DNA of 64,000 bases from Diadema setosum (taxonomy: Eukaryota > Echinodermata > Echinoidea > Diadematoida > Diadematidae): contig NC_092700.1 of the NCBI RefSeq assembly GCF_964275005.1, positions 21,623,674-21,687,673 of the forward strand. The letters run 5' to 3'. Below are positions 35,958 through 61,695 of the stretch, one piece after another; within the stretch, counting starts at the first letter, position 1; every line of letters begins with the position of its first letter. Under the pieces are notes generated by a model that saw only the letters and a list, made by a program, of their open reading frames with translations, searched no databases and was not told where the DNA came from. The translations under genes and the position numbers were made by a program.

Positions 35958-36220
35958 TCAGGTCGATGAGGCCTCTAAGCAATGCCTATAGATCTTGTTG
36001 GATTTACGGATAATATTGTCGTCAGCTACTTCCAGCAGTTTGACAAGAAGCGCAAGGAAGTCTTTCTTGCTGAGTTCGTCACTAGTTTCTTCGAGGATGT
36101 TGTCCACGAAGAAGATTCTGTCAGACGCACCTCCTAGGTTAGTTATCAGTTTATTCATTGGACTGCCATCCGGATTTCCTTTGTCGTCTCTGCACGTCAC
36201 TACGAAGACAGGAGGGAAAG
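35958..36220 (-). CDS. Ig-TM-GTPase unit 2: last GTPase exon (G4/G5, stop)
   Basis: A 263-nt terminal exon after a GCACTCCACAG acceptor in phase 1, ending with TGA at 35958-35960. It encodes FPPVFVVTCRDDKGNP, where VVTCRDD occupies the G4 (NKxD/THxD) position, then ASDRIFFVDNILEETSDEL (strand 6 and the G5 region) and FLALLVKLLEVADDNII. The last helix strongly resembles the LSALRRMLWAADDFLE end of human IFI44 as I remember it. The usual Asn/Thr-Lys/His of G4 is replaced by Cys-Arg, so base specificity may be altered. Joins 36915 as SG-PFPPV. Confidence 0.82.
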
Positions 36221-36914
36221 CTGTGGAGTGCATTGATAATGGTAATAATACTGAAAATGATAATGATGATGATAATAATGATTATAATGATAGTGATAAT
36301 TATCATAGTAACAGTGATAACTTATTATTACAGTAAAAGAAAATGATCTTACTTTAAACACGATATGACAAAATGGTCTTGAATTTACAATAACACCATA
36401 GGGGAGGAAATACTTCAAACCAATGAAAAACTACACCAAAACAAAACATCCGCACTGTGATGTTACCTCTGTGTGAAAATAATCTTATCACTAAACCGAT
36501 GAAATCTCTCGAAGTAAAAAAATAAATAAATACGAGTAATAACACTATTTGTAAGTCCCAAACTTACAAGTAAATGTGCAATATCATGTAAAACTAATTT
36601 TGATACTGAAGGGTTTGCATTCTGCACCAATTATGGAGTATTATTTGCAGACCCTTATAAGTTCAATCTGAAATTAATTGTGTTGATGTTATATACTGTT
36701 GATCTTAGAATAAAGAACACCTTGAAATACATCGAAACAAAAATTACAAACTTTTTAGACCTAATAATGCAAAATATAGAGGATATTTATTATACTTTTA
36801 TTAAAAGAAAATCTATATCGGGCCTATGAATACACTGAGACTACCATTCCTTAATGCTTCTGCGATTTGCTTTGATTGACATCGGTTCTCAGCCATAGTA
36901 CAGTGAGATTTTAC

Positions 36915-37050
36915 GGCCGGATTGCCGGAGGTCCCTTAGTATAGAAGTAAATACTTCGCATGGCAGACAATTTCTGTTCCTACTTCGATCTGATGACTTG
37001 AACGAGAAACGCATTTCGTTTTCATCACCGCAGCTATGAAACGCATGATA
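36915..37050 (-). CDS. Ig-TM-GTPase unit 2: GTPase exon 4
   Basis: A 136-nt exon from a TTCATATGTTCGCAG acceptor (phase 0) to a GGCC/GTAAAATC donor (phase 1). It encodes YHAFHSCGDENEMRFSFKSS and DRSRNRNCLPCEVF, then TSILRDLRQSG. The RFSFKSS segment aligns with the CVAFVFDASS strand of IFI44, and ILRDLRQSG with the helix before G4. The number of residues from the DxxG motif to this strand (51 by the exon chain) equals my count for IFI44, supporting the model. Confidence 0.7.
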
Positions 37051-37084
37051 CTGCGAACATATGAAATATATCTGTCTCATATAT

Positions 37085-37215
37085 CTATCTCAGTGTGAAA
37101 AAACAATGTGAAATGCAATGTGAACACATTGAGATCACAGTGTAAAATCATCTTCACACTGTTATATTCGAACGTTTTCACATAGCCGACCACGTGAATA
37201 CACTGTGAACACGCT
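37085..37215. repeat. cluster of CAGTGTGAA/TTCACA motifs
   Basis: Short palindromic motifs (CAGTGTGAA, TGTGAACACA, TTCACACTG, CACTGTGAAC) recur six or more times within 130 bp, directly upstream of the exon at 37050. No known function. Confidence 0.5.
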
Positions 37216-37421
37216 GTGGAACCCTGTTCTTTCCAGCAATTATACTGTATATGACCTGACAAATTACACATGCAGTGTAATATCAAATATTGCTTGACCG
37301 AGATAGAGTCCCAAAAAAGGGTCAGGAAAATAACTTAGCATGTTTGCTCATTTATTTATAAAACAGCAAGAAAAACCCCACAAAAATAACACAAGTCAGC
37401 GAAGACAATTTCCTTTGTACT

Positions 37422-37523
37422 GTATATCGTCGGTTGAGAATGATAAGGGCGTTAAGTTGTCACAAAACCCATAGTGTTCAAAATAACTTAACGCCCTTCT
37501 CATTCTCAACAGACGATATGTAT
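37422..37523. mobile_element. hairpin MITE, about 100 bp
   Basis: The arm ATCGTCGGTTGAGAATGA plus GGGCGTTAAGTT faces its near-complement, leaving a loop of about 26 bp. Intronic in the unit 2 gene region, between the GTPase exons at 36915 and 41826. Confidence 0.7.
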
Positions 37524-37668
37524 GTATATATATGCCAGAGTCATTTTGGGCTAGTAGTGGAAATGGATACATTAAGTCATTACACTCGTGCAAATCATAT
37601 CGTGCCTATACTTGTTTTAGGCTTACCACAGTTCTTTCAAAATCGAGTTAATATTGCCTGTTTAAAGA

Positions 37669-37756
<88 letters not shown>

Positions 37757-38881
37757 ACTAAACAAAAGTAAGTTCCCCCTAAAACAAACCTCTGTAATTT
37801 ATGAATCAGGGACCTTTAAGGAAATCTGAATACAGGACCATGTAGCTATACTTCCTGGCTACCTTTCAAGTGAAATTCAGTGGAAATAATCTGGTCACGC
37901 TTGAATGAGCATGTCTTAAAGTTAAAATGGTCACTTTTTGAAGTTCACAAGCCCAATTTTGAAACTTTGATCGGGTGATATCGAAACAGATTTCGATTTT
38001 CCAGGTTAAAAAAGGCATTCAAAGTATGATTTATGTGCTTCTCATCGTACCATGTGACTTTTGCACAAAATTTCACGGTTGAGTGACCACGAGATGAAAA
38101 TTGCCAAAATGGCCGATTTGACATATTTCTCGTGGTAATTTCTATCAATTAAGATTGAATCCGTGTGTTGAACAGTTTTTACACACAATCCTCATAATTT
38201 CACGGTTGAATGAGCACATTAAAAACAAAGAAATATAACAATTCAAATTGTGCAGTAAGAATTGCGATAATTTTGCGCACTGAAATCAACTGTATGATGC
38301 TTTTTTATTATTGTGCTAATACCCACACGCATATCAGCGACCAACTGACATTTTAGTCACGCTTCAATAAGCGTGTGAGGCTGGAAAACCCTTTTCTTTT
38401 ACCCTACATGATGAAATTTTGCAGTTTTGCTTTCATCCCCATGGTAAGTTCATGTAAAGAGGCAAAATTTATGTTTTTGAAAGCTAATATTGCCATATGA
38501 ATGCAATGTGGTTTATTTTACGGTTGAATGACCACATTATAAAAAGAATGTTTTATCATTGTGACGTCATGAAGTCACGCATTAACTCAAGGGAAAATTA
38601 ATATAATTAATCGTTGATTGAAATGGTACCAACTTTTACTTTTGTTAAACATCAATATCCTCCAGTGCTGAAAATATGCACTGTGAGTCTGGAGACAAAA
38701 GTTCGAACACCTGCCCTCTCATGAATGAGTGACCAAAGAATGCATGTCCAGAACCTGGACAATAAGATTACATACCACAGTCAACAAACATGAAATGAAC
38801 ATGATCAGATTTGTGAAGAATTTTTTTTTTTTTTTGTACACAACATATGAGAGTCAAGAACATAGGGAATCAAGCACCATC

Positions 38882-39122
38882 ATGCCTAGGTTGTCTATAC
38901 AGCACAGGGGAATCGCCATAGGGCTTCTTCAAGCAGGAACTCCTGTGAAGGAGGTGGCTCGGAGGGTAATGGTGTCACCCAATGCGATTAGGAAACTAAG
39001 AGCCAAGTTTGAGCAAACTGGAGAAGTTGGCGATGCGGCAAGAACAGGCAGGCCGAAAGTAACCACTCCAAGAGAAGACCGGGCCATTAGAACGAATGCA
39101 TTGCAACGGAGGTCACTTACAG
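38882..39122 (+). CDS. Tc1-like transposase, exon 1 (DNA-binding region)
   Basis: It starts at ATG 38882 (MPRLSIQHRGIAIGLLQ) and encodes a paired-type helix-turn-helix: TPVKEVARRVMVSPNAIRKL, then RTGRPKVTTPREDRAI, a GRPR-like hook between two HTH motifs. It ends at ACAG/GTATAATC, phase 1. An upstream in-frame ATG exists at 38729, but the sequence before 38882 has no family similarity. Joining to 39326 restores a continuous Tc1 protein (RRSLTAPQIQREL). Confidence 0.85.
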
Positions 39123-39325
39123 GTATAATCAAGATTTTTATTAATTTAAACGTTAAAGATGCTTTCCAATATTGTTGTCGACATAATTGTGACCATTTTG
39201 ATGACTATTTTGTTTTGACTACTTGGAAGACTTGCTAGGCTAGCAGAAATTGAATTTAAATGCACTTCATAAGATATCGTCAAATAACAGGTTTAATCAC
39301 TGTCATGTCTTTATCCCCATTTCAG

Positions 39326-40104
39326 CGCCACAGATCCAAAGGGAACTTCGTCCGCGTCATCAGCAGAGAGTAAGTGCCGGAGCGATACGGAATCGGCTAC
39401 GTCATGCCGGCCTTCGATCCCGCCGCATAGTTAAGAGAACCGAACTCAAGGCACGTCACAGGCAGGCCAGTTTAAGATGGGCCAGGGAACATGCCCGCTG
39501 GACTCAGAGAGAATGGGGGAATGTCCTCTTCTCAGATGAAACTCGACTGTGTTTGAGACACATTGATGGCAGGGAACGTGTTTGGCGCCGGAGAGGTGAG
39601 AAGCACACAGAATGCTGCGTCCAGCCTGTTACAGCGTACGGTGGTGGCAGCATCATGGTGTGGGCTGGCATCAGTCTGGGAAACACAACACCTCTGGTTC
39701 AGGTTAATGGGAACCTGAATGGACATAGGTACGTGGAGGAGATCCTGCGTCCCCACGTCCTCCCTTATGCAGCGGCCCACGGCCATGGATTCGTCTTCAT
39801 GGACGACAATGCCCGTCCACATCGTTGCCGAGAGGCGAACACTGTCTTGCGCCAAGAGGGGATCCAGAGGATGACATGGCCTGCCAATTCACCTGACCTG
39901 AACCCCATTGAACACTTATGGGACCAGCTGAAACGGGCCGTGTATAGGCGAGTGAACGAGGTTACCACAGTCGAGGACCTGACACAGATCTTGCAGGAGG
40001 AGTGGTTAGCCATCCCCCAGAAAAGAGCGGTGAAGCTCATCCGCACCATGAGGATGAGATGCAATGCTGTCATCGAGCAAAATGGTGGCTACACTCGCTA
40101 TTGA
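39326..40104 (+). CDS. Tc1-like transposase, exon 2 (DD34E catalytic domain)
   Basis: After a CCCCATTTCAG acceptor the frame runs 258 codons to the stop. It shows the first Asp in VLFSDETRLCL, the second in FMDDNARPHR, and the Glu in NSPDLNPIEHLWDQLKR, 34 residues after the second Asp, hence DD34E. Also seen: GGGSIMVWAGIS and the C-terminal KRAVKLIRTM. The combined protein is 339 residues, the normal Tc1 length, with no visible disruption, so the element may be active or very recent. The intron (about 203 bp) is unusual, since most Tc1 transposases are intronless. Confidence 0.92.
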
Positions 40105-41730
40105 AAGACCACTAGAACTCTAAATTAGTTACGCAGAACCAACATTAGACATGTCAGGATAAAATTTCACTTAGCTGTATGTGCTGCTAAACATTGCTTT
40201 CGTTTGATTATGAGGGAAGTGCTATGTTTCCCTGCACTTCAAATCTATATTTTTGATTGTACATAGGTATATGTCTGTACATGTTTTCTAGTGTCAAGAC
40301 TTTTAGTGCTTTATCCATCTTTTTTATTCTCAATTAAGCTGCTTGTTTTTGTATTGTTTTCAATTATTTCCATGTGAAAAATGATTGACAGGCACAATCT
40401 GGAAGAACTATACTAAGAATAAAAGTCTGAATTTATAAGCGAACACAGTTGAGTGAAAGTTGTATTAATTTCTTTGCACATTTTATATATCTTCTTTATT
40501 TTCTCTGTTGTCTCCTGCTTCATTTATCTGACTCACTGCTCCATCTGCTCCTTGTCTTCCTTCTCTTTCTTCTTCCTTTTTGCTTTCTTTCTCTTCCTCT
40601 TCTTTTTCGTTGTCTCTACATTTTATCTTTCACAAGGTTTTGCATTCAAAGTGAATCGTGTAGTTTAACAAACAAAAGGAGAGTTATTGCCACTTGCTGT
40701 TGGTATTGATTGTGGTGAGATAGTGGCCTTTGCTGTTCATGTGGTGTTCAAAGTTGTGATGGTGATGATAGTTGCTTAAAATGTTGGTTGACTATTATGT
40801 GATTGTTATGGCAATATCACACAGCTTTTGTAGCATCTCCACTCACGTTTTAGGCTCTATCCGCCAACCCCGCTGAACACGTCTTCATAAACAAAACAAA
40901 TGTAAATCTTATGAGAATTTCAGCCACGAAAGAAGGTTTTGACCTGCACACTATGCTCATCTTATGTGCTCACTGAAGCATGTCACAGTGTCATTTTTTA
41001 TTGAAATGATTTTTTTTTTCACTGAAATCAGACTAACTTCCCGATATTTCAACTAAAACATAAAACACAATGAATACTTTGTTTATCAATAGGATAAAAA
41101 GGATTTTCAGCCACCCATGCTCATTGAAGCGTGACTGAAATGTCAGGGGATCACTGTATGCAATTGGGTATTAAACACAACACAAAAAGCATTAAACAAT
41201 TGATTTCAGCACACAAAATTATCAAAATTCTCATTGCACAATTTAAATTGTTATTTTTCTTTGTTTTCAATGTGCCCATTCAACCATGAAATTACGTACA
41301 TTTTGTGTAAAAGCTGTTCAACATGAATTCAATCTCAATTGATAGAAATTACCACGAGAAACATGTCAAATCGGCCGTTTTGGCAATTTTCATCGCGTGG
41401 TCACTCAACCGTGAAATTTCGTGCAAAAGTCACATGGTACGATAAGAAGCACATAAATTACATGTTGAATGCCTTTTTAACCTGGAAAATTGAAATTTGT
41501 TCCGATATCACCAAATCAAAGTTTCAAAATTAGGCTTGTGAACTTCAAAAAGTGACCATTTTGACTTTAAGTCATGCTCATTCAAGCGTGACCAAATGAT
41601 TTCCACTGAATTTCACTTGAAAGGTAGCCAAGAAGTACAGCTACATGGTCCTGTATTCAGATTTCCTCAAAGGTCCCTGATTCATAAATTACAGAGGTTT
41701 GTTTTAGGGGGAACTTACTTTTTGTTTTGT

Positions 41731-41788
<58 letters not shown>

Positions 41789-41825
41789 ATTCTGGAGGAG
41801 TGCCAATTACATGTGACAAACTTAC

Positions 41826-41896
41826 AAAGTCTCTCGGTGATGTCGGTGATAAATTTTCTATACATGGGTTTATACGGCTCGATGTCTTGATTTCGG
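41826..41896 (-). CDS. Ig-TM-GTPase unit 2: GTPase exon 3
   Basis: A short 71-nt exon between a TTTCCCATTTCAG acceptor and a CTTT/GTAAGTTT donor, both good. Phase 1 in and phase 0 out fit the exon at 45458 (T + CC = Ser) and the exon at 37050. Translation in that frame is EIKTSSRINPCIENLSPTSP then RDF, the region between G3 and the next strand. A second open frame (DIEPYKPMYRKFITDITERL) also exists but would need a weaker upstream donor and does not fit the next acceptor. The exon lies only 93 bp from the Tc1-like element. Confidence 0.6.
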
Positions 41897-42474
41897 CTGA
41901 AATGGGAAATAAAAAAGAGTTAGTGTAGCAGTAACCTTCCTACGTCGGTAATTCGCTGGTCACAAGTTTAGTGTGCAAATTTCATGAAACCCAATAGAAG
42001 AGTGATACTATCTCCGGGTTCTGGATATATCTTGACTCTCTGACACATGCAACGCATTTTGAAAGTGTGTATTTCTCAATACATTGTAATACTTACACAA
42101 GCTTAATCATAGACACGATAGCGCTGTACTTTATCTTTCTTTTCATGAATTCCTGATCACCAACTTCTTCTTTCTTTCTTTTTTTTTTTACAAGTCACAA
42201 CACATTGATCACTTCGTTACATTTGAATCCTCTGACTTCAGAAAGTCATACCTTTGCCGAAACATCATGTCTGTTTTTGAACTGTCAGTCACACATAATA
42301 TACCGACTATCTTGCTGGTATCTTATGTCTTTTTAAAATGTTCGTGGTTACGTCGGTTAGAGTTCGTTTTCGGAAGATTTGTTATTCCAAATGTTCTTTG
42401 GTAGCCCATGTCTTTTTAATTAAGGATCAACAAACCTTATTTCGTTGACGGATTGTCGCACTATATAGCTACAG

Positions 42475-42803
42475 GAAATTTCTGGGTGCACGTCACGAGA
42501 CCGACACCCACGAGTCATACAAGCCCACGAGTCATACAGCTCACCAGTCATACAGCCCATGAGCTATACAGCTCACGAGTCATACAGCCCATTAGTCCGA
42601 CACTAAGCTAACAAGGCCCACGTACGGGACCGACACATTAAGCTCCGTGTTTTATCTGTCGAGCTCGTGGGCTGTTTTTACCTAGTGTCGAACTCATGAG
42701 CTGTATGATTGGTGAGCTGTATGACTCATGGACCTGCTTTCAATGTCGAACTCGTGGGCTGTATGACTCATGGGTGTCGGTCTAGTGGGATGACCCCAAA
42801 TTT
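42475..42803. mobile_element. foldback element with short subrepeats
   Basis: Inverted arms contain GACCGACACCCA(C/T)GAGTCATACA and several copies of a 16-18 bp subrepeat (GTCATACAGCYCA), with ends near AAATTT(C/G)(T/G)GGGT. About 330 bp, no coding. Confidence 0.65.
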
Positions 42804-43959
42804 GTGAGCTTCGTAGTAACGAACCTTAGGAATAACTGCCCTTCGGAACTATACATCACACGTGATTACAATATAGACATGGTTGGATAAAGACGTGTCT
42901 CTGTCACGACCATGTGGCGAAGACGTATACGCATACAATGACATATTTGCTGAACGTGAGATCAATAGTTAAAGTCGAATGCAGTGACGGGTCGTAATAT
43001 TCAACGACATTGTTCTTACTGCTTGAATACACCGATTTACAATATGTTACCATCACTAGCAATTAAAACAGAATTGTACTAAAGAATTTTCTTGCATAAT
43101 TATGTAAAATACGACACCTCTCTACTGCAACAACACAGTCGTTGTTTTTCTCTCAAACAAAGAAAGATATGACATATGGCATGATGGAGTCTTAAAGGGA
43201 AATTTTGCAAAAACATACAACGTGGATTTAGAATATGCAGAAATGTTAGTAGAATACATCAGATAAGTGTTCACTTCACATTTTCTACAATTTATCGGTG
43301 CATTTACTCTATTTGATTGCGTGCATTTATGAGAAACTTCCCCGTCAAGAAATGATTACACTCACCCTATAACAATGATTGGGCAGCAAATTTCATCGGT
43401 CACTGTGGAAAAGCAATACAATTGTTGCAAAATAATAGATTTAGTCAACCAAAATTACACGACGTGAAGGTGACAGATTTATCCTTCAACATTTAAAACA
43501 AGACAGTATATGGGCGTAAGAAATCATTGTACTCTTTAAAAGCTTTTTGTCCACAAAATTCAATTCTTAACTCGCTCCAAAAGCGCCTAATTCCAAGCGT
43601 CTACCCATTTTTTTTTTTTTGAATTTGTGTTTATTTTTAAGGGATGTTTACAGTGCTATTTTAACGCAATCAAACTAAAGCAAAATGATTCTGATAGTCG
43701 TAACAGCTAACGGACAATGACGTCCGCTTAGACAAAACGAATAGAGAAAGACTAACAGACCAGAGATATTTACAATAGAATCTGTAAAATTGTGAAATGT
43801 AATTCCACGCAAAGGTTGGCTCTAATCATGCTAATTACGAGTCAAAACAAACCATCATGCAGTTGAATTTTCATCAAATGATAAGAATTTTCACCACTCT
43901 GATATGTCAAGTGAAAAAAAAACAACAACACGTAACTCTGGTTACACAAACTTCTGAAA
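42804..43959. other. intronic stretch, nothing supported
   Basis: Lies within the long intron between GTPase exons 2 and 3. No motif or exon that fits the flanking phases was seen; a T-run at 43609-43621. Confidence 0.35.
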
Positions 43960-44858
43960 ATAATTGAACACAGTATTAAGATAATTTACAACTCTAAAAT
44001 TAAACCTTTGTTTGATTATGCAGATGTACTTCATGATTCTGCCCATAAGAAGTATGCTGATTGATTGCAGAAATTACAGAATAGAGCAGGGAGAGTGATC
44101 TTGAGATTCAGTCCGTATATGCATATTTCGAATCAGGTTATTCATCTAACACTAAATTGCGAATCCTTAAAAGCACGCCGATCAAAGCATATTTTGCTTA
44201 TGGTATTTAAAGCTCTTAATAATTTCAGCGCTCCTTATCTATTGGACCGGATTAACTTTGTATCTCATCAATATTTTTTACGCTCTTATGGAAGGCTATC
44301 GCTGTCAAAACCTAGAACAGAATATTGTAGACGCATGTTCGCCTATCGCGGGTATAACAATACAGTTTCCTTGGATATAATAGCCTCACCATCACGTGAT
44401 TCCTTTAAGTATGGTAAGCAATAAATAATTTGATAATTTGATAATGATTTACACTGGTTGTATGATAATTATGTGATCAGGTATCCCCTGTATTATGTTA
44501 ATGTTTATGTTATTTGGGAAGGGCTGTGGTGGGGAAGGGTATATTGGCAGTCGGGATGGGAGGGGTATCATTTTTATGTTTTTTTTTATCAATGTTGTTT
44601 TAGTTGATATACTGATGTATCAATATTTTGTTTGTATGATATTATTGTCTGTAAGTAAGTGTGTGTATGATTAGTTTCACTGCATGAAGTTTTAATTAAT
44701 GTGATTATTCATGTGAAGTTGGACCCCTCGATAGACCAGCACGACCATGAAGGTCGAGCAGAGAAGGGCAATCCATCCGTTTATCTTCAGTTATATATGC
44801 CAGTTGTATCATTGCTATTTTGTGATTTTACGGTGAATAAATAAACAAACAAACAAGT
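43960..44858 (+). mobile_element. LINE 3' end (5'-truncated copy)
   Basis: The plus strand encodes LQKLQNRAGRVILRFSPYMH, NCESLKARRSKHILLMVFKA and LSKPRTEYCRRMFAYRG, the conserved C-terminus of CR1/L2-type LINEs, then a 3' UTR ending in AATAAATAAACAAACAAAC. The reverse transcriptase core is missing. A different family from the copy at 605-2540. Confidence 0.8.
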
Positions 44859-45457
44859 CAAGGCAAATATGCTGACATTGTCTTACAATTTCCAACTGAC
44901 CCCCAATCAAATCTTTCCCATTTTTTTGAATTAATATCCTTTCGATAAATCTAGTGTGGGGTTGTTATAATTGGGCATAACGACTTTTGATGGGATATTG
45001 TTCTACGCTTAACAGAAACAATTATTTGGATATAATATTTGGGTATAAAGCGATGACGTAATTTTCTTGCAAAACCTTTTGACGCGAAATCAAATCTTTT
45101 TTAAATCTCACTTGTGGGAACTAACAAAAACAAACAAACAAACAAGCACACACACACATTTTATTATTTGTATTGTTATACCATAAAGTTGAAATGACTG
45201 CGCGCAATGATGATTTTTAAGTTTAATGAGGTGTCGTTCTAAACCGCAAAGAAATTTATAGATATTCTAGTATGTAATCGTCATCTAATTTATTCTAGAC
45301 ACGTCCGCTATTTTTTTTTTTTTTGGGGGGGGGGGGGTGGAGCAATTTTAGTGCAGTTAAATTATTGTGAAAGTCTGACAATACTCCTGCTATAAAATTT
45401 AATGAAGACATGAGATTTTTCTCTTTCACGTCACTTTCACAGAATGAACTGACTTAC
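44859..45457. other. intronic stretch, nothing supported
   Basis: AT-rich; CA-rich stretch near 45130-45160 and a T/G homopolymer pair at 45310-45337. No coding signal. Confidence 0.35.
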
Positions 45458-45613
45458 ACATTTTGTCGACCACATTCGACACTTCGTTCGGCCCTTTCGG
45501 GAGACCAATGGTATCTTGAATCGCAATGTTGTCGTTAATACTATAGAAACTTGACTCCTTTGTAACTCCTCGGCCATCTTTTGACGGCCCCGTTTCAATG
45601 CGACGATATTCAT
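45458..45613 (-). CDS. Ig-TM-GTPase unit 2: GTPase exon 2 (switch I and G3)
   Basis: A 156-nt exon from a TTTGTCATCAACAG acceptor to a ATGT/GTAAGTC donor, phase 1 on both sides. It encodes EYRRIETGPSKDGRG, VTKESSFYSINDNIAIQDTI and GLPKGPNEVSNVVDKM. The IQDTIG stretch is the G3 motif (DxxG), and the threonine in GRGVTKES is in the switch I (G2) position. The order and spacing agree with IFI44 (TGISEKYRTYSI...FILCDSLGL, from memory). The junction with the previous exon reads YSVT-DEYRR. Confidence 0.83.
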
Positions 45614-46324
45614 CTGTTGATGACAAAAATAACACAATTGCGAACCATTAACAAAGTTTAACGAGATGCTGCTTTCGTTTTGGGGCGCAAGAGTGACCAT
45701 CAACGGCCCATGGTTAGTCATTGTGAAATCAATGATAAATATATGTCCATAAGCTATGGTGCATGCTTTTTGCAAAATGAAAGCATCTTTAAACAATAAA
45801 AATATATTCATATCTACTACTAACTTTACAATATATGAAATACAAATATCAAATGCTAAAATACCCGTATGTTCAGCGAACTGTTTTATTTAAAAGTCTA
45901 TAAGTCGAACAAATTTTGTCGAATGTCACGAATGACACGTTTATTTTTCTTCGTCGGCATTCTCTTGTCTCTATCATCAACATCATTGCAATGTAACGTT
46001 TGGTCACGTGATACTTTGTAGACCAATCACTGAACAGAATGACATTAACAATTGATTTAACACCCGATATTACGAATTGATATTTCCGTTATATCATATT
46101 GAATAATCATGTGTACCAATCAGCAATTGAATAAAATGATTGAATAGAATTGATGTCACAATATTGTATTTTAATTGGATATGTTGTATTCTTTATTTGG
46201 TATACATTTCTTTTCTGTTAGCCATTTTCTTCTTTGACATGTTTGAACATGTATATGCATGAATATATCTTTTCATTTTTGAAGCGCCATGAGCACTGAA
46301 AAGTGGACCTGTGCGCGATACAAG

Positions 46325-46328
46325 TAGC

Positions 46329-46392
<64 letters not shown>
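46325..46392. repeat. (ATT)n microsatellite
   Basis: About 22 uninterrupted ATT triplets. Confidence 0.95.
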
Positions 46393-47120: not shown

Positions 47121-47144
47121 TACACACCCTTTGAAGGAAATCAA

Positions 47145-47786: not shown

Positions 47787-47936
47787 CGGTCACGCTGTAG
47801 ATCAGGCTCTTAGAGAGTGACGATCGTCCGCCACCTTCCACGCCGTACACGGCCAGAAGTGTCTTCTTTGGCAGATTTTCTTGTACCACCCTTGCGTATG
47901 CGCCTGGTTTGTAGGTTGCTAATTTCCTCCGCATCT
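47787..47936 (-). CDS. Ig-TM-GTPase unit 2: GTPase exon 1 (P-loop)
   Basis: A 150-nt exon from an ATTCTCAG acceptor to an ACCG/GTAAGCC donor, phase 1 on both sides. It encodes MRRKLATYKPGAYARVVQ, ENLPKKTLLAVYGVEGGGRS and SLSKSLIYSVT. LLAVYGVEGGGRSS is a Walker A/G1 motif (GxxxxGKS) with Arg in place of the invariant Lys. The YKP...LLxxG pattern is the start of the IFI44-type G domain. The phase fits the transmembrane exon at 51003 (G + AG = Glu, giving LRKSK-E-MRRKL). Alternatively the internal ATG, two bases after the acceptor, starts a separate cytosolic GTPase. Confidence 0.83.
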
Positions 47937-48186
47937 CTGAGAATACAGTATGTAAACTATGTAAAATATTTGGTAATAGGACTACACGAACAAGTTGGTG
48001 AGAAGTGTAATATGTTTCACAAACCTATATATCCACCCTTGCGTACGCGTCTGGTTTGTAGGTTGCTAATTTCCTCCGTATCCATCTCTGAGAATACAGT
48101 ATGTAAAGTATGTAAAATATTTGGTAATAGGACTACACGAACAAGTTGGTCTGAAGTGTAATATGTTTCATAAACCTATATATCCC
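47886..48186. repeat. 147-bp tandem duplication over the start of the P-loop exon
   Basis: Two copies (from about 47886 and 48033) include the splice acceptor, the first part of the exon and upstream intron. The outer copy has 4 extra bases after AGATG that shift the frame relative to the inner exon and lacks the P-loop, so it would make only a short alternative exon. Confidence 0.85.
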
Positions 48187-49204: not shown

Positions 49205-49384
49205 ATCTATATATGCAATGATTTAATTTTCACCTTCATTACTACTAATCAAATATAGAGCAACTGAAAATTTTGGCACAATGATTTTTTGTCGTATCAG
49301 GCATGATAATCACGTTCATCATAAACATAAAAAGCTCAATCGAAGTATAATCACCTAACCATCTACATGTATATACCTTGCAGG

Positions 49385-49625
49385 TCAGTTGCCGGTGGTA
49401 GGCAGATTTCGCTGTACGAGTGGCTGGAACTCGTGGCTGAGAATAAGGGATATAAAGATTTTCTTTGTCGGTTTGGACACGATCAACAAACACATGTACG
49501 TGTACGATGCACTAATACTACAGAACTCCCATGTACATGTAGGTCCCACTAAATTATCCCTCGTGCAGTTCTATTTCAAAGAAATCGGCGCTCGAGATAG
49601 TTCTTTAATCCAGTGTAGTGCATGA
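49385..49625 (+). other. plus-strand open frame of natural composition
   Basis: After CTTGCAG the plus strand reads LPVVGRFRCTSGWNSWLRIR, DIKIFFVGLDTINKHMYVYD and LSLVQFYFKEIGARDSS before a stop. The hydrophobic pattern looks protein-like, but the domain is not recognised, and it lies in an intron of the minus-strand gene. A passenger exon or decayed element is possible. Confidence 0.22.
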
Positions 49626-51002: not shown

Positions 51003-51146
51003 CTTTAGATTTGCGAAGCATCACAACAAAAAGAAATGTGAGAATCACGATGACAATCACGGCAAGAACCACAATGACGGCGATGAACCCTCCCACCACT
51101 TGGCTGTCGGACGGGGTAGCAGCAGTCACACCAGGTTCCTCTGTTC
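51003..51146 (-). CDS. Ig-TM-GTPase unit 2: transmembrane exon
   Basis: Begins after a CCTATTTTGACAG acceptor in phase 1 and encodes a Thr/Ser-rich stalk (GTEEPGVTAATPSDSQ), a single membrane helix (GGFIAVIVVLAVIVIVILTF then LFVVM) and a basic stop-transfer LRKSK. The frame ends at an AAAG/GTGAAG donor, phase 1. If this donor is skipped, the frame continues EDTFPDEYTSQCFHLL to TGA at 50950-50952, giving a receptor with a short tail. If used, it joins the P-loop exon. The Ig exons upstream fit in phase (YEP-G-TEEPG). Clear type I membrane protein. Confidence 0.82.
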
Positions 51147-51502: not shown

Positions 51503-51907
51503 GATACGATCAAAATATTGTCTGCAAGAATGCATGTACAGTCTAACCTGTGGTTTTAATCTTGCAAGATGATCTGAAATGACACTTTGAGTTGCACGTA
51601 AGCTGTCTTGCCACATAACCCACTTGGACTGCGTTGTGGATTTTATTTGTTTGGGTTTGTATGGATAGCTCTGTGTCTACGTGTGTGTGTGTGTGTGTGT
51701 GTGTTTGTGTGTGTGTTTTGCAGGGTACAATAACTATGTGTTAAAAGAATATTATGGCAACTTATGTATCTTTATCAAAGATATAATGTGTATATAAAAA
51801 TGCAAGATTAACATTTTCTACATTCATGCTGATATAAATTAACAAAAGCTTGCATACATCTTACAATTATGATATATAGGGCATAGATACGCCCCTCATA
51901 GTATATA

Positions 51908-52156
51908 TGAAGGGTTTGTTTGCAAAAACCGATAAGTCCATATTTGTCAAATGGAGACATTTGCCATTAAAGGTCTAGAAAAATAAAGAGAATAATAAGA
52001 AAATTTGTGCTTCTTTTGACCATAACTTCAAAAATATACCTTTATGTGTAGTGACCAATATATCATTTGAAAGGTATTATTTTGTACTTTATGACAGAGA
52101 CCGTACTTCAAAATCTTCAAAAATGGACTTATCGGTTTTTGCAAACAAAGTCTTCA
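51908..52156. mobile_element. MITE copy 1 (TGAAGGGTTTGTTTGC ends), TA target
   Basis: Inverted ends of about 35 bp (TTTGCAAAAACCGATAAGTC and its complement), flanked by TA. Its right end lies 7 bp from the exon boundary at 52164, so it supplies most of the 5' part of that intron. Confidence 0.85.
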
Positions 52157-52163
52157 TATGTAC

Positions 52164-52266
52164 CTGGCTCGTATCGCTGTACAAGTGCAATCATTTGAGT
52201 AGTCCCCTTCACAGCAACACCCTCTGCTAGACATCTGAACTTCCGTCCGACTTCATGCCTGGAGAC
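52164..52266 (-). CDS. Ig-TM-GTPase unit 2: second exon of the C2-type Ig domain
   Basis: A 103-nt exon from a TATCTCCAG acceptor (phase 0) to a CCAG/GTACAT donor (phase 1). It encodes VSRHEVGRKFRCLAEGVAVK and GTTQMIALVQRYEP. KFRCLAEG provides the F-strand cysteine that pairs with FPIVC of the previous exon. Joining to 53817 gives SLALK-VSRHEVGRKFRC without a break, completing the domain. The donor is weak (GTACAT) and borders a MITE, so splicing efficiency may be reduced. Confidence 0.8.
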
Positions 52267-52747
52267 CTGGAGATATAATGTCTTAAATGTATGTCTGTCC
52301 AATTAACCAATGAACGAAAGTCTTTTTCTGTGTGTTTATTCCGTATAACAAATTTCGATATTTTTTTTCATTTCACTCTTTATTTCCCCCCTAGATATTC
52401 AGATACATAAGATTTATAAAAACGATTACTAAAATCATTACACGTACATATCACATTACGAATACACTGACCGAACGACATGGCTGTTAACAGAAAGAAA
52501 ATGTTCAGAAAAAACTTGTTACATTCATTGTTGTTAATGTGCACATTTGCAATTTTAAGCTGCCCAAAGCAAAGAAATTAAAGAATATTACTCACAATTT
52601 GACGAAAAATCCTTGTTATATATCAAGTGCATGTGGTATTGCTGGGAAGTATTTGTTTTTTTTTTTATGATAATCGACTTACTTAAAATGTTTAAGAATG
52701 GTACTAAACCCGTTTGCGATGAAACTTTTCACACACACACACACACA

Positions 52748-52785
<38 letters not shown>

Positions 52786-52921
52786 GGTATTATTATCCGC
52801 GTGTTGGAATAAGAGCATGAAGACGATGAAGACAAACAAGTTGACATAATGCATTAGAATCCAACTCCATTTATTTGTAAACCAATGTTCGACCCTTGCA
52901 CGGATCTTCCTCAGGGTAACA

Positions 52922-52979
<58 letters not shown>

Positions 52980-53816
52980 TGTATTCATTCATTCATTCGT
53001 TTATACAAAATATAACAATATGTTTCAATACTACCTGGTAGAAATTGACATTTTTGCCTATATCTGATTTTATCCTGGGTCATACGACTGATTATTCCTC
53101 GTACCTTAAGCACTGACAGCCCAATGCTTCTGTAAAGAGATATTTGTGTTTTATATTTAAACAGACTGTTACACATTTCTCGTGATGTTTCACGTAATTT
53201 GTATTCTGTAATTTTGGTATCGTTTAAATGTATTTTTTTTCTGTGACATTTTCATGAAAAATATGAGAATAAATTTGAAATGAAATTGAACGCGAAATCA
53301 ATCAAATTTCGCTAGGAGTGACAGTGACGATCACATAATGAAACTCTGGTTAACTCGGGCATTACATATCAGTGAACATGATTTCTTGATCATTATTTAC
53401 CTTACAAGGGTGAAGCACAACTTTTAAGTTTTCGACAGAAGAAAATGTATCACTTCGAATGTTCTAGATTAACGATGAAACAAAATATTAAACAAAATCA
53501 AATTTAAAAGGAGTTTTGTCAGTTGAGCAACCCATGCAATTAATGCCCTCTTCTACAGTTCCATCAAACTTTGAACAACGAGGGTTTTATTAGCTCTGCA
53601 ATGGAGCGAACGGAGCAGAAAATTAAGAGGCATGGCAATCAAATATACCATAGCTCCCTGACAGATCTTTACTTTCTGATTTTGACAAAGACGAATGGTA
53701 TTGGGTATTTCCCTTGAACATTCGTGTTGTTGTCTGAGTTTAGTCCTATATTTACAGTCTACATATTCACCAAGTATTTAAACGCGAGAATATGCTGGAT
53801 TATCAAGATCTCTCAC

Positions 53817-54064
53817 CTTTAATGCTAGCGACGCATTCCAGAAACCTCCTTCTACATAAATGTTCCTCCTGGCGTACTCCTCGGAGTGAGTGTCACCCTT
53901 CACGCTGGTCCAAGACAGGTGGACTGGTGGACGAACCATGCTTACTCGGCACACGATGGGGAACAATTCAAACTCTTCCATCAACTTACCCACCGTGTAG
54001 GTACACTCTCCATCACTTGTTGGCTTGCAGTGGTCCACTGTCGGGTGAAGTGGTTCGGCAAGAA
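53817..54064 (-). CDS. Ig-TM-GTPase unit 2: first exon of the C2-type Ig domain
   Basis: 248 nt, acceptor TTTTCCCATCAG (phase 1), donor AAAG/GTGAGAG (phase 0), the same boundaries as the unit 1 exon at 3162-3409. It encodes AEPLHPTVDHCKPTSDGE, GKLMEEFELFPIVCRVSMVR and PPVHLSWTSVKGDTHSEEYA, then GGFWNASLALK. Two extra cysteines (VDHC, GEC) precede the core pair and could form a further disulphide. N-glycosylation sequon NAS. Very similar to unit 1 in sequence and flanking intron (shared ATCACAAAGCAT and AAACCTGTC). Confidence 0.87.
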
Positions 54065-54483
54065 CTGATGGGAAAATGATTATATCGAGGTATAAGTTTC
54101 TACGTATATGGCGAATAAATAACAAATATAATCTACGTAAAGAAAAATCTTCACAATAACTTTTGCATTTTAATCACATTAATTTAGAATCACAAAGCAT
54201 TTCTTTGTAAAACAAAACAACGGCAAACGACTGTATCAGAATTCCTTGAAACCTGTCCTACGACACACCCTACTCTGGTATTTCTTCTGCAAAATCATTC
54301 TGTGGGATCAGTTTATTATCTTACTGCAATATACATAAGGTACAGCTGACAATCTTAATCCAAAAGTATTATAACAACCATTGCAAAAATCATTCTCTGG
54401 CAAATGAATGTACTGTTTACATATGTAATTATATTTCTCTCTACTTCTGCACGGACACTTATACACAATATCAAATTTATATA

Positions 54484-54521
<38 letters not shown>

Positions 54522-54525
<4 letters not shown>

Positions 54526-54744
54526 GAGTTTGTTTGCAAAAACCGATAAGTCCATATTTGCCAAATGGAGATATTTGCGATTAAAGGTCAAGAAAAATAA
54601 AGAAAATAATAAGAAAATTTCTGCTTCTTTTGACCATAACTTCAAAAATGTACCTTGATATGTAGTGACTAATATATCATTTAAAAGATATTATTTTGTA
54701 CTTAATGACAGAGACCGTAATTCAAAATCTTCAAAAACGCTTCA
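54522..54744. mobile_element. MITE copy 2 (same family as 51908-52156), right end deleted
   Basis: The left end and body match copy 1 (GTTTGCAAAAACCGATAAGT), but most of the right inverted repeat is missing and only the terminal CTTCA remains. It lies in the intron between the V and C2 exons of unit 2, next to a TA tract. Confidence 0.8.
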
Positions 54745-54834
54745 TATATAATATAGGTGAATGAGCGAAAATAGTGTAATCTTTTATTTACTTTGAATCT
54801 TTAATCTTATTAGGACCAAATATCTTTTATTCAC

Positions 54835-55152
54835 CAATAACTGTCAAGTTGATGTACAAACGAGGTGAGTCTCCATTGCCCAAGGCTACGTGACAAGAGT
54901 ACGTGGTCTCATCGTCCACCAATAGGTCCCGTATCACGAGAGAGTATGTTGACGTCATAATAAATCTCGGACCCGCGCTGTTGATGACCTTATTTTGAAA
55001 CTTTTGTATCACCATCGTGGAGGCCGGATCTCCCGTTGAGTTGTGGCGATACCAAACCACGGCTATCACTGAGGATGGCCTTTCGACTTCACACGGTAGC
55101 TCCACAGTGGACCCCCTCAGACCACTTATGGCTGGGAGTATCAGTATTTCGT
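54835..55152 (-). CDS. Ig-TM-GTPase unit 2: V-type immunoglobulin domain exon
   Basis: 318 nt, phase 1 on both sides, from a TTTTCCTCAACAG acceptor to an ATTG/GTGAATAA donor. It encodes ILILPAISGLRGSTVELPCE, VIAVVWYRHNSTGDPAS, INSAGPRFIMTSTYSLVIRD and DDETTYSCHVALGNGDS: B- and F-strand cysteines, core Trp and the D.(E/T)T.YSC signature of V-set domains. It differs from unit 1 at roughly a quarter of positions and is longer by a few residues in the C-C' and C'-D loops. Outer, probably ligand-binding domain of the receptor. Confidence 0.88.
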
Positions 55153-58100
55153 CTGTTGAGGAAAATGTATTTACGTATACAGACAAAAAAAAAAAATAGA
55201 GTGACAATGTGGTATAGGTAAACAGATCGAGGCATAGAAAGCACCTAGAAGAGTGGTAAAATGAGAAACGTACAAATGAGATTATCTCAAAGATAATTGC
55301 CACCCATCACGTCACGGATAAAACAAGCATTTTACCAAGATTTTGAACAAGCATTTAACAGGTTGTATAAACAAGATTTTAATAAGTGATTGGGTGTATG
55401 CCTGTGTGTCGATAGGATGCCTTGGTATGAAACAGAGATTTTATGTGTGTGTGTGTTTGTTTGTGTGTGTGTATGTGTGCATATGTGCGTATGTGTGTTT
55501 TCCTTCCAAGCAAGAACTACGAACTGATCATTAGAGTTGATGGATTGCATGAAATTAAAAGAGTGTAATTCTACTGAAAAGAAATTGAAGGAATACATTA
55601 CCGAAGTGGTTTCAAAACTGGTGAAATTATAGTAATTTCTTTTTTCTAAAGAGGATTGATCAAGAATATGCTTTTTGAAATGTCCCGTCCTCAGTTATGA
55701 TTAGAGTTGTCGCAGATAATCATAAAAGGACTATTCTTAATTCTTAATCTACTTAAATGAATACACAGAAACAATGAAACCATAACGAAAACGAATATAT
55801 ATGGGAGTGTGGTAAACTTAGAAAATGTAATGCGACTTGTGAAACCTTTGTCTGAACTGTCCTCTTAGTCCCACATCATTTAGTCTGTGTCGAGCAAATT
55901 AAACGTATGAGTAATATGAAATTGTCCTTGTTTAAAATTTAGGCAGTGTATCGGCACAGGAATGGCAAAACATTTTGTAGCCGATGTAATCTGCCAAAAA
56001 GTAGTATACAAGATTAGGGGTGGAGTCAGGAATTTGTTCAGCCCATCAAGGACAGAGTTTGCACGACAATTTGAATGTAAAGGTCTGTAAATCCTAAAAG
56101 TAAAAATTAAATGTGACCGTGCACCACAAAACAAACAAAAAGTCGCACCATTTGATTTTAAGTGAGGACTCAAAAAATTGAAATGGTTCAACCAAGTCAA
56201 TCTTGAGTTTTGCATATTTTCTGAAAGAACTATCCTTCGTCTACATTATTCTTCACTTTGGTATCTTAACATGAATGGGAAAGTGTGTTTTTAGCAGTTT
56301 TTCTACAACCCTTCTTGGGGGAAGAGTAGAATGATCAGGTATGACTCAGAGGCCACTTTTCATGTCTTGAAATCCTTTGCAGACTCTTCATTTTCAAGTC
56401 TAATAACTTTTGAAAGGATAACACTATTGCTTTGCAAGTTAGCATTAATCATGGGCAGAATATGCTAATAGAACATGCTTAATTTCAGCTTAATTTGATA
56501 ATCTCTTCATTGTTGTTGCTCCGGTTGGTTTACATCCTGTGTTTTGTCCCTTTCATGGCTCAGCTAGCACGGCTTGGTAAAAATTAAGCGCTTGAATAGA
56601 CCATGTACTTCAGAGCCTCTTTTCTCAGTTCACACTTTTCCAGAGTGTAGGCTTTCTTTCCAGTATTTAAGTAGGTTAGGGGAGCCCATTTGAATTGAAT
56701 TATACATCATTTTAAAGCTTAGAGTCTGCTTTTTCATAATCTGTCCTTAACTGAAAATCCATATCTGGTGACTCTGTGGTGTTTTTGTGGTGCAGGGTCA
56801 CAAATGCCCCATCTAAATAAACCCAAAGCTGTGCCTACTGCTTTAGAATAGGAAATTGGGACCACAGTTTTGATTTTTGGGTGCATCTTCTCGTTATTCA
56901 ACATCGAACCTGATATGTGATTGAATATTAACGATCTAAACTAAAAGTAATCTGACAGGTGCATGGAATGTGTGCATAATCAAATATTCCGTTTCTCTAT
57001 TGAAGGCCGGTTTTATGTAAATCTCGCGTGCCCCAGTTGATTTGTAGTTGATGCCACTTATACACATACAAAAATAAAAAAGCAAGAACGATAGAAAGAA
57101 GAAGAGAAAAAACGACACAAAAGTAAAAGAAGCAAAAGCAAAACAAAACAATTGAAATCAGTGCAAGTCAACAAGTTTCAATAATTAAACCAGTCCGATA
57201 GACGTGTGTAAATGTAACGTTGGTTAATTGATCGAGCAAATCTTGTTTTAGCTAAAAATAGAATTGTTGTCAATATTTGAAATCTCAAGTTCAGTCGAGG
57301 TTGTATGAAATGGAAATGCAGTACTTTCAACATTTTACACTTTCCAATAATAATAATAATACATTACATTTATAATGCGCTTAATACAATGTTTCTAAGC
57401 GCAGGTATCAAAACAAATCAAAACCTATCAAAAGCAGGTTCCTTCATATTTCTTTAGCATTTTTTCACAGATTCCAAACCTCATAGATCGACCACTATAT
57501 GTTTTATATATTTGCAATATTCTATGTATGTCTCCAGCTTGATATCATGTACTTCATTTAATTTTGTTATATTTGATGTATATTTTCATCGAGAAATATG
57601 AAAAATAAATTGAAATTGAAAACATACCAAAACATACCAACACATATCCCTCTCTTACGAAGGGACAGACCGTATATCATACATACGCGGTTTACTTGAT
57701 CTTCTTGTAAGCGATTGAACAGCATAGATAATGCCATTGATACCTTTGACATTTAAACCATTGAACCCAAGTAGGAAATATATAGAATATTCTATATATA
57801 TTGTGTTCCATATAGTGTGTGCTTGCAATATCTATAGATGCATTTACTTGTAATTACTTATTATACGTTGGTATTGTGGATTCTTTTTAACGGTATGCAT
57901 TTCTATAAAATCGAAGAATCCATCACTTGCATAACCAAAATATCTTTTTTTTGAGAAAATGTACGTTTCAAATCAATGCAGACAGCACTTGTCATTCAAA
58001 TAATACTTCATCTTCAAATGCATTTGTTCATAACGATGTGAGATTGTTGGGTTTATATTTTTTTTTTCGGATGAGGAGGGTGTTATATATCTATGTACAC

Positions 58101-59590
58101 TGCTTTACATGTGCTTCAATCTACATCGTACGTAGGGTATTCTTAACTCTCATTTCCACGGACCACTCTCCCTCACACATTTTATTTCATTCAATTTAGA
58201 GAGAAAATCATTTATTTAACGACTCAAAGTTGGCATTCAATTGCGCGCCAGCTGGAGAGCTGGATTGATGTTCAAATTCCTGCCAAATACCAGTTTCAAT
58301 TTCATTTATAGGAACACAACTTCGCACTTTTTACTTTTGTAAAATCATTTGTAATTCAGCCTCAGGCTGCGACCAATGATTTGTTGAATAAAGATACCAT
58401 TAATAATAAGTTCGAATTCAACAACATAGCCACTTCTACGGGCCTTTTTTTTTCACTGTCATATTGGATGATACAATTTCATTTTCATTTCAAAGTCTCA
58501 TTTAATCATCTTAACTGTATTGTATGGATTCTTTCCTATCGACCTTTCTTTCACTTTCAAATCATCTATAATATGGATGTAGCATTTAGGAAATAGCAAT
58601 ATCCCAGAATATCTTGGTCCTATACGTCCAAATCCATAAGTTGTCGCAATCGGATCAGCTGTAGATAGACCTATTTCACCAAAGGGTTATATTGCCAGTT
58701 GTGCTGGTTGTCAAGGTCATGCATCATCCACTAATTCTGTCCGTATTCGAGATGTTCACGCATACGCTGTAATGTAGCAGCGGCTAAAATCGTGTACGAA
58801 TGAAGTGTAAATGTATGTGTTTGAAAGTGGGGTTACACAAGTTATTAGCTAGTATGAGTAAAAATCACATTTCAAGGTATATTAAGTTTGCATATTCAAA
58901 CAGATGAGTAAGTGATACGTGGAATAAAAGCAGGCAACTAAAAACACTGCCCATACTTTGTAATTGTATACCTTATTGTGAATTTGAATACTAACGCTCT
59001 CCGCGGCCGAGTATGTTGATGCGAATTGGAATGCGTTGCACTTGCATTTTTAATTTGAATGCCCTTTTTACACCCCTGTTTGAGAAACTCATGAAATCGC
59101 ATGCTGATGAAATTAAATTGAATGAACTAATTACATTTTTAAATGTTGATCTCGATGATCATTCAAAGTCACTCAAACTTGATTGACCGCATCGTAAAAT
59201 CGAATGCAAATCTGATGGCATTGGGCGGGAAAAACTATATTATTATTTTTTATCAATATCTATCTATCTATCTATCTATCTATTTATTTACTGTCTTCTT
59301 AGAGTGATATATATATTCAATATTTAGCAGCTGAACTATTTCCATCAAAGAAGAAAAAGGAAACGTGATACAAATGATTAAAATTTCTCTAGAATACTGC
59401 CTTTATCATGAGACCTTCGGCTTTAAGTAGACAAGCTAATACATTGTGTAACTTTGTGCTTTCTATATACAATCCGCTTTATAATGATTCCTATAAGGAT
59501 TGATTCCTTTATTGCCAGTGCCCGAGAAGCTCATTGTGACGAAGCAAAACTGTAGGGAATTTAATTGTTGAAACAGGAACAATGCGAGAC
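55153..59590 (-). other. predicted intron 1 of unit 2; no gene seen
   Basis: A GT repeat (55446-55500), a short ATA repeat (57345-57362), AT-rich sequence and a CTAT repeat (59258-59284). The frame rich in Phe at 56936-57151 is low-complexity. No exon fits. Confidence 0.4.
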
Positions 59591-59645
59591 TTTTTGAAGC
59601 ACGGCACACCTGCAACTGCATGTTGAGTGGATCACGTGACTATCA
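59591..59645. promoter_or_regulatory. conserved block with a TCACGTGA E-box (unit 2 copy)
   Basis: CACCTGCAACTGCATGTTGA then GTGGATCACGTGACTATC, matching the block at 5950-6005 upstream of unit 1. It is 4.4 kb from the V exon here and 1.7 kb in unit 1. Confidence 0.45.
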
Positions 59646-60123
59646 AAGTGTTTCGTGGACTCGGGGTATGTTGTATTTGAGAGCAAGGGTGCGTTGAAAG
59701 GAGTGATTGAATATGTGACGAGTTCTCATGGTATGCGGCTAATCATGCGTAGTGGGGCGGGTAGGAGCAGGGAGGTGGAGCCTCTTCCACTCCGCTGGTA
59801 GGAGTATGTTGCTTTGTTAATGGACGAAGAGCCACATGGTACCAATGATCACCGACACACCATTGTTTGTGGAACAACTCTGGGATGGTCCTGTCTATGT
59901 ACAGGAGCGTTAAAAGGGATATCTAGATTGAGCAGCATGATAACTTAGTGTATTACCGATTTTGACGTGCGTTATTATTTTGTGTGTTTACTTTGGCCCG
60001 ATTAATCAACAGAAAGATGGATTGAAATTTGTGTGATTTGTATTATTGTATTGATTCTTCCAACACCTCATGAGGAGTACGCGAGTACAAAGAAAAATGG
60101 AATATATTACAGACTTGAGAATA

Positions 60124-60124
<1 letters not shown>

Positions 60125-60217
<93 letters not shown>
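60125..60217. repeat. (TA)n microsatellite
   Basis: The longest of several TA tracts; others are at 11915-11960, 32378-32412, 37692-37753, 41734-41785, 52751-52783, 52924-52980, 54478-54521 and 61270-61330. Several flank Tc1/mariner-type elements. Confidence 0.9.
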
Positions 60218-60219
<2 letters not shown>

Positions 60220-60222
<3 letters not shown>

Positions 60223-61268
60223 TCAGCAAAAAAAAAAAAGTAAGTTCCCCCCTAGCATTTTTGGATATATCTCAAAAAGTGTTTTACCGATTTTCATAAT
60301 TCAAACGGAAATGGATAAGGAATTTTATTACTCATAATATGAGTGGCAAATCATTGCCACCAGATATCATTATTGGTGTGAAAAATGCATTTTATGTCAA
60401 AATGCATGGAAAAAAAGTTGCACTTTAGTGATTTGCAATGACTTTTACACAAATAATCAAACAATCACTCGTGATTGTGAACATTTAAGCATGGTTGATT
60501 GCATATTTCTCTATCTCTTTCTTTTCATGAGCATATAGTGAAGTATTTGATAATTGATATGTCCACCATCCGCTTCAATGACCAGCCGGCATCTCTTCCT
60601 CATACTGTTAACTAAAGTTTACTTGGCACTGTTCAATGTTGGCCCATGCTCTCTGCAAGATGCGCTTAAATTCTTGCAGTGAAATGTCATCTTTCACCTT
60701 CTTGCTCGCTTTCCGCTTAATGACATCCCAAAGATTCTCTTCTGGATTACAGCCAGGCTATCTTGCAGGCCACTCCGCGTTCGATGCCATTTCCCTGAAC
60801 AAACTGATCTACAACTTGAGCGCATGATGCAAAATGGCCATAGGCACATTAATGTGATCAACCCAGATTGGAATTACAAATCACATGGCTTCTACCAACA
60901 TTTTCATATTGAAAAAGACTATTGTTTAAAAAGTATACATAACATCTGTTTAATAGGGAAGCACATTGTACCCGAAGAAATTCCTCAGAATTGCACAATT
61001 TAAAAAGGTCATTTGCTAACTTACATAGGAAATGTATACAATAATTATGCTTCATATAGCCTGAAGTGCAAACTTTTTTCTCATGCTTTTTGGCATAAGA
61101 TGCGTTTTTTCACACAAATACTAATATCTGGTGGCAATGATATGCCATTCATGTTATGAGTAATGAAATTCCCTATCCATTCCCGTTTGAATTATGAAAA
61201 TCCGTAAAATACTTTCTGAGATACATCTAAAAATGTTAGGGGGGAACTTACTTGTTTTCTGCTGAGTG
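60220..61268 (-). mobile_element. decayed Tc1-like element, 1.05 kb
   Basis: The ends read CACTCAGC...AAGTAAGTTCCCCCC in inverted orientation, inside TA tracts. The minus strand at about 60590-60740 still encodes NPEENLWDVIKRKASKKVKD and ISLQEFKRILQRAWANIEQ, the end of a Tc1 catalytic domain (the NPxEN/H-LW motif). The remainder is deleted or degraded. The terminal AAGTAAGTTCCCCC is shared with the intact element at 37754. Confidence 0.8.
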
Positions 61269-61323
<55 letters not shown>

Positions 61324-61613
61324 ATATATTTTTTTTTTTTTTGTGAATTGTATATAATGACACAAGACATAGAAGACAACATCATAGTGTATGCGAGTAT
61401 AAACATGATCAAAATGAACGAGAATTCAACAACCATAAGAAGAATAAATTACATAATGCAGGTAAGGATGGGATTAGGTTTAGACCATGATTAGTGTGAT
61501 TTTGATCTGATGGACATGGCTCACCGGGTAGTCCGGATGCAGCAAACTGGGCTGAATCATACATGCACTTTGTACTTTGTCAGGAACTCCTTCATCCCCC
61601 TCCCCCCCCCCAC

Positions 61614-61695
61614 CCCTGTAGCTGTACGTTTTTACAAGCACGAGTATTAAACTAAATAGTACGAACTTTAATTGCATCTCACAGTCATTTTGCAT
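61614..61695 (-). CDS. possible signal-peptide exon of unit 2
   Basis: ATG at 61695 (or 61677) begins MQLKFVLFSLILVLVKTYSY: basic start, hydrophobic core, polar end, as in a secretion signal. A GT (AGGG/GTGGGG) follows in phase 1 and would join the V exon as YR-DEILILP. The donor is poor and sits in a G-run, and the sequence does not resemble the possible leader of unit 1. Position and phase are right; otherwise unproven. Confidence 0.35.

Follow-up and report, generated by a model that had tools for sequence, protein, structure and literature searches.

The 64,000-nucleotide stretch of the Diadema setosum genome analysed here (contig NC_092700.1, positions 21,623,674 to 21,687,673; hereafter the window) carries on its minus strand a gene that very probably encodes a surface receptor and a GTPase-like tail in a single chain. 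As predicted from the sequence, the product would be a type I receptor sequentially composed of a signal peptide, a V-set immunoglobulin (Ig) domain, a C2-like Ig domain, one membrane helix, a short basic juxtamembrane stretch, a linker in some copies of the gene, and a G domain. This Ig-Ig-transmembrane (TM)-GTPase order, proposed in a preliminary description of the window, recurs in two proteins annotated in this way at different loci, P0004 of D. antillarum and P0005 of D. setosum. In addition, the order and phase of the exons are the same in all five D. setosum copies of the gene.

Homology-based splicing yields a protein of 541 residues for the window gene (copy 1), and the exons are collected in Table 1. 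The preliminary description had listed nine exons. Spliced again, they reproduce the open frame as stated, with a 2-nt partial codon followed by 528 codons and a stop in 1589 nt, and AG and GT are present at all eight junctions. Seven of the nine match the homology-based model; the other two are wrong, and two further exons were missed. One of the faulty pair, 41896-41826 (GT4), has correct boundaries and was read in the wrong frame, as judged by the NCBI protein P0001 and the homology model. Its correct reading is RNQDIEPYKPMYRKFITDITERL, and it is preceded by a missed 37-nt exon, 43402-43366 (GT3). The other, 37050-36915, is spurious: P0001 joins 41826 directly to 36220, and none of the five copy models uses it. 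It had seemed to fit because it restored the frame that omission of the 37-nt exon had shifted.

The second missed exon, exon A (49436-49377), lies between the TM exon and the P-loop exon GT1. The direct joint LRKSK-E-MRRKL, on which the preliminary description had hinged, is therefore probably not the main one, and the joint probably reads LRKSK-ATSSSHSYSEICLPPATDLQ-EMRRKL. Direct splicing from the TM exon to GT1, skipping exon A, is likewise in phase. Counterparts of exon A are found in copy 2 (HYIEV), in copy 3 (SYIQV), and in a second D. antillarum protein, P0002, where the linker stands between the TM and GTPase parts. In all three D. setosum versions (SYSEI, HYIEV, and SYIQV) a tyrosine begins the pattern Y-x-[EQ]-[IV], and in the copies that carry it this linker of 19–20 residues may recruit SH2 proteins. 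A scan for linkers that contain a tyrosine and finish with [LIV]Q found none in copies 4 and 5, so a differently built linker could have escaped it there.

The exon chain is not a product of chance because five gene copies repeat it. A tblastn search of selected pieces of the D. setosum genome identifies the window gene, copies 2–4, of which copies 3 and 4 lie further down, and copy 5 at C16:9.50-9.52 Mb, all on the contig of the window (C16); the copy number is at least five. Each copy is open when spliced by homology and has the same exon order and phases, with exon A placed in three. From the V exon to the stop, copy 5 is exactly P0005. P0002 joins the TM, linker and GTPase parts and shares 99% identity with copy 2 over the TM and linker and 94% over the GTPase; it is therefore likely the orthologue of copy 2. 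A genome search with the GTPase, in which 46 candidates were scored, found no free-standing GTPase, as all 15 matches at E ≤ 0.001 fall in the five copies. An earlier D. setosum genome has reportedly been published (PMC11066563), and the account of a further published genome project for the species mentions RNA from gonad (PMC13264686).

The V-set domain of the window gene scores 34.6 bits in Pfam against a cut-off of 26, and those of P0004 and P0005 score 35.6 and 37.1 bits. The second Ig domain of the window gene reaches 18.1 bits for C2-set_2, against a cut-off of 21. From about residue 60 onward, each of the five copies displays one 21-residue hydropathy peak of 3.05–3.62, followed by basic residues, and the next best value is 1.15–1.27. 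The hydrophobic N terminus was read by eye as a candidate signal peptide. Its exon was placed in three of the five models (copies 1, 3, and 4) and not in the homology models of copies 2 and 5; P0005 supplies one for copy 5. An N-terminal signal, read by eye from these hydrophobic termini, together with a single helix would place the Ig domains outside the cell and the GTPase inside.

The GTPase block is predicted to be a TRAFAC-type G domain of about 220 residues, and its predicted fold model presents a complete G-domain fold. The P-loop glycines G24, G27, and G29 are invariant among the seven sequences compared. Searches of Pfam, NCBIfam, and PDB sequences with the GTPase part returned weak matches, none over the cut-off. 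At the level of predicted fold, the tail resembles the GIMAP/AIG1, Toc33/34, and IRG GTPases, among others. GIMAP stands in the first Foldseek row for both fold models, with EF-Tu and Arl13B tied with it in one comparison; GIMAP1, 2, 4, 5, and 7 are among the rows, at 11–22% identity, and so are IRGa6, Irgb10, and Irgb6. A VIA fold comparison places mitofusin and EF-Tu first and has Toc33/34 among its matches. The Pfam AIG1 family (PF04548) was unmatched at E ≤ 1 in scans of four proteins and of seven family members, with HMMER filters that drop most matches above about 0.1. IFI44 and IFI44L, to which the preliminary description had likened the tail, are GTPase-like proteins with a P-loop. IFI44 is absent among the PDB fold matches shown by Foldseek and VIA, an absence that excludes nothing, and no TLD domain is among the Pfam matches of the four proteins scanned.

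Several observations weigh against a single chain with a signalling tail. To begin with the chain, NCBI annotates the window copy as two genes without the TM exon: an Ig-only P0003 of 250 residues, ending VG before the TM, and a GTPase-only P0001 of 224 residues, starting at ATG 47934. A methionine also lies between the joint and the P-loop in copy 2 (offset 15) and in copy 4 (offsets 16 and 25). Among the D. setosum proteins matched, in a database clustered at 90%, copy 5 alone is fused and copies 2–4 have none. These points would suit two adjoining genes that were duplicated as a unit, the first for an Ig protein (a receptor or a secreted form) and the second for an independent cytosolic GTPase beginning at ATG 47934. 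We regard such a pair as very improbable. A methionine directly at the joint is seen in the window copy alone of the five, and none stands ahead of the P-loop in copies 3 and 5. The phase-1 splice acceptor of GT1 is present in all five. P0001 matches the C-terminal part of the corrected model residue for residue, and P0003 matches the N-terminal part (signal and Ig) in all but the final two residues of P0003. Between them the two models skip 69 residues, encoded by the TM exon and exon A plus one residue at the joint, and all five copies possess the TM exon that both halves leave out. Moreover, P0004, P0005, and P0002 are joined models. The single chain could also coexist with a shorter product, if alternative splicing of one gene yielded an Ig protein with a short tail or in secreted form as well as the Ig-TM-GTPase chain. 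Reading through the TM exon adds a 17-residue tail before a stop, and an open stretch of 112 codons in phase 1 (49206-48869), with an AG before it, lies downstream of exon A. P0004 is named 'isoform X2' and represents three member sequences, a name that may hint at transcript support, and Ig-only relatives exist (P0006–P0008). At E ≤ 0.01, however, none of the other four copies matches the 112-codon stretch, which may be due to chance and was for this reason rejected as the main tail. Alternative ends appear somewhat unlikely, and the single chain would stand with or without them.

A tandem duplication of about 150 bp (47886-48185, minus strand; 93% identical) covers the GT1 acceptor and the start of that exon, and its upstream copy, which has 4 additional nucleotides, is not in frame. 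The duplication may have contributed to the splitting of the gene in the annotation. An ancestral phase-0 start of GT1, as suggested by the duplicate at 48185-48033, was rejected. The real GT1 aligns by eye without gaps to copies 2 and 4, and therefore the duplicate is the one that carries the 4 extra nucleotides.

Other adverse points concern the tail. The Walker A motif GxxxxGK[ST] retains its lysine in one of the seven sequences (copy 3, GIGGAGKTS) and has arginine in the remaining six, including the window gene. With motifs placed by eye, the G3 motif DxxG is kept in the window gene alone, and in none of the seven is TKxD or NKxD seen at the expected G4 place, where T-x-x-[DNK] stands. With arginine at the position of the P-loop lysine in six of the seven, hydrolysis would be expected to be slow or absent, and the domain may serve as a scaffold rather than as an active enzyme. 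P-loop lysine is likewise missing from the 'GMS' members of the IRG family. The same substitutions, along with the greater divergence of the copies in the tail than in the ectodomain, raise the prospect of a pseudo-GTPase, whose G-domain fold would act as an adaptor only and bind no nucleotide. The invariant glycines, the intact P-loop of copy 3, and the completeness of the fold model argue in the other direction. We consider a pseudo-GTPase a serious possibility, at somewhat under an even chance, and one compatible with the Ig-Ig-TM-GTPase architecture. The tyrosine linker is not general either, as P0005 lacks it and the linker of P0004 is longer and contains no tyrosine. Copy 3, the sole copy with the canonical P-loop lysine, lacks an AG acceptor at GT3 (C16:21555781-21555745) and may therefore be decaying.

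The pattern of divergence also departs from that of a fast-evolving sensor. P0004 and copy 5 agree at 91% in V, 91% in C2, and 65% in the GTPase, so the ectodomain is better conserved than the tail. In pairs of D. setosum copies, dN is 0.247–0.472 for the GTPase and 0.078–0.192 for Ig. By these estimates, the tail is changing faster than the outside, the reverse of a receptor with a fastest-changing ectodomain. For the Ig exons, all 10 pairs have dN smaller than dS, and the ratio reaches 1 or more in 0 or 1 of 200 bootstraps. For the GTPase exons dN is again the smaller in all 10 pairs, with at most 1 in 200 such bootstraps except between copies 1 and 4, where the ratio is 0.92 and 74 of 200 bootstraps give 1 or more. 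The TM-plus-linker block gave ratios of 0.20–0.83 in eight pairs and no value in two. Judged by these ratios, the Ig and GTPase halves are both constrained.

Relatives were found in Diadema only, in protein searches with the corrected sequences and a profile (seven proteins at E ≤ 0.1). The corrected-sequence search scored the 8000 candidates with the most words in common with the query; it reaches only relatives that share exact words, and remote ones may thus be missed. On the matches seen so far, this is a small gene family known only from Diadema. Related to it within the genus are the Ig-only receptors P0006–P0008, which come from both Diadema species and have homologous V and C2 domains followed by a hydrophobic stretch, but have short tails and no GTPase. 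P0006 and P0008 share 45–55% identity with the five copies, and P0007 shares 50% with the window query, the end of which included the 112-codon stretch. These proteins are perhaps a branch without the fusion.

The extracellular half follows the layout of V-C2 type I receptors of the immunoglobulin superfamily (IgSF), of which CD80-, nectin-, and VSIG-like proteins are examples. It shares with them a putative signal peptide, a V-set domain followed by a C2-like Ig domain, one membrane helix, and phase-1 introns on both sides of the V exon. The tails of those receptors are short or bear tyrosine motifs, whereas the Diadema chain continues into a whole G domain. We know of no GIMAP/AIG1, Toc33/34, or IRG GTPase with an Ig ectodomain. 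In Aplysia, Toll-like receptors carrying ROC-COR GTPase domains have been described (PMC9334734). In the part of that account available to us, receptor and GTPase domain likewise lie within one chain, but neither the ectodomain nor the GTPase belongs to the families found in Diadema, and the protein includes a TIR domain. A similar precedent, again from a partial view of the source, is a gene of sea anemones that combines LRR, Miro/Ras, and TIR_2 domains (PMC5094078). As far as these two accounts go, a receptor and a GTPase in a single chain is thus an idea with precedents. In the open-licence literature, judged by titles and the starts of abstracts and with subscription journals mostly outside its scope, no Ig-TM-GTPase receptor is described, and the combination appears new.

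The intron between GT4 and GT5 of the window gene contains a Tc1-like element (37698-41788), whose transposase lies between two inverted copies of a repeat of roughly 700 bp (37698-38395 and 41097-41788; 89% identical). Two of the introns in the Ig portion share a 222-bp repeat (51902-52123 and 54516-54737; 93% identical). Between the C2a exon of gene 2 and the window edge, a LINE-like open stretch of 559 codons (599-2275, plus strand) matches the reverse transcriptase domain RVT_1 with an E value of 6.6e-36.

Table 1. Features of the window and their coordinates, numbered from the first nucleotide of the window
Feature	Positions	Strand	Basis and remarks
Signal-peptide exon, window gene	66111-66036 (window numbering, beyond the window)	-	Homology model
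V-set Ig exon	54835..55152	-	Phase 1 in, phase 1 out; Pfam V-set E 2.4e-8; unchanged within NCBI P0003
C2a, exon 1 of second (C2-like) Ig domain	53817..54064	-	Homology model; CD80-like C2-set E 0.0028, under cut-off
C2b, exon 2 of second Ig domain	52164..52266	-	Homology model
Membrane-helix (TM) exon	51003..51146	-	Hydropathy 3.62 over 21 residues, then MLRKSK; missing from both NCBI models
Exon A, cytoplasmic linker ATSSSHSYSEICLPPATDLQ; tyrosine motif SYSEI	49377..49436	-	60 nt, phase 1-1
GT1, P-loop exon (GVEGGGRSS)	47787..47936	-	AG acceptor and phase 1 shared by all five copies
GT2 exon (DTIG)	45458..45613	-	Homology model
GT3 exon, 37 nt (TDEICCPIIVIG region)	43366..43402	-	P0001 and homology; omitted in the preliminary description
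GT4 exon, phase 2 in	41826..41896	-	Frame corrected by P0001 and homology model
Exon of the preliminary description, judged non-exon	36915..37050	-	Not in P0001; no counterpart in five models
GT5, final coding exon including stop	35958..36220	-	Homology model
Tc1-like transposase	38729-39235 (HTH); 39244-40101 (DDE_3, HTH_Tnp_Tc3_2)		Domain matches
Gene 2 (copy 2), V-set exon	3948..4253	-	tblastn and homology model; later exons beyond the window
Gene 2 (copy 2), C2a exon	3162..3409	-	tblastn and homology model

In the mechanism that we propose, the V domain would bind a ligand outside the cell, and the receptor would then cluster and bring its cytosolic G domains together. G domains of the septin, GIMAP, and dynamin kind associate through their nucleotide faces. 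Those of Diadema may pair in a similar manner and build a scaffold at the membrane, and it is conceivable, though we hold the view loosely, that the G domain signals directly. With similar reserve, we suggest that the genes constitute a class of receptors specific to this lineage and expanded in tandem. In each, the Ig ectodomain would act through a single membrane helix on a G domain covalently joined to it, without needing an adaptor or a kinase as a separate partner. The G domain and not the V domain would be the fast-changing part, and the copies may share a ligand and differ in output. Judging from the tandem arrangement of the family and its IgSF ectodomain, the most likely use would be in immunity or in self/allo-recognition.

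The window gene is also a warning about annotation, as the public models break it at precisely those exons on which its interest depends. The fusion apparently arose within a single lineage of sea urchins. Mass mortalities have struck Diadema, and its recognition genes are therefore of practical interest. A receptor with a built-in effector of GTPase fold would wire surface recognition to the interior of an animal cell in a new way.

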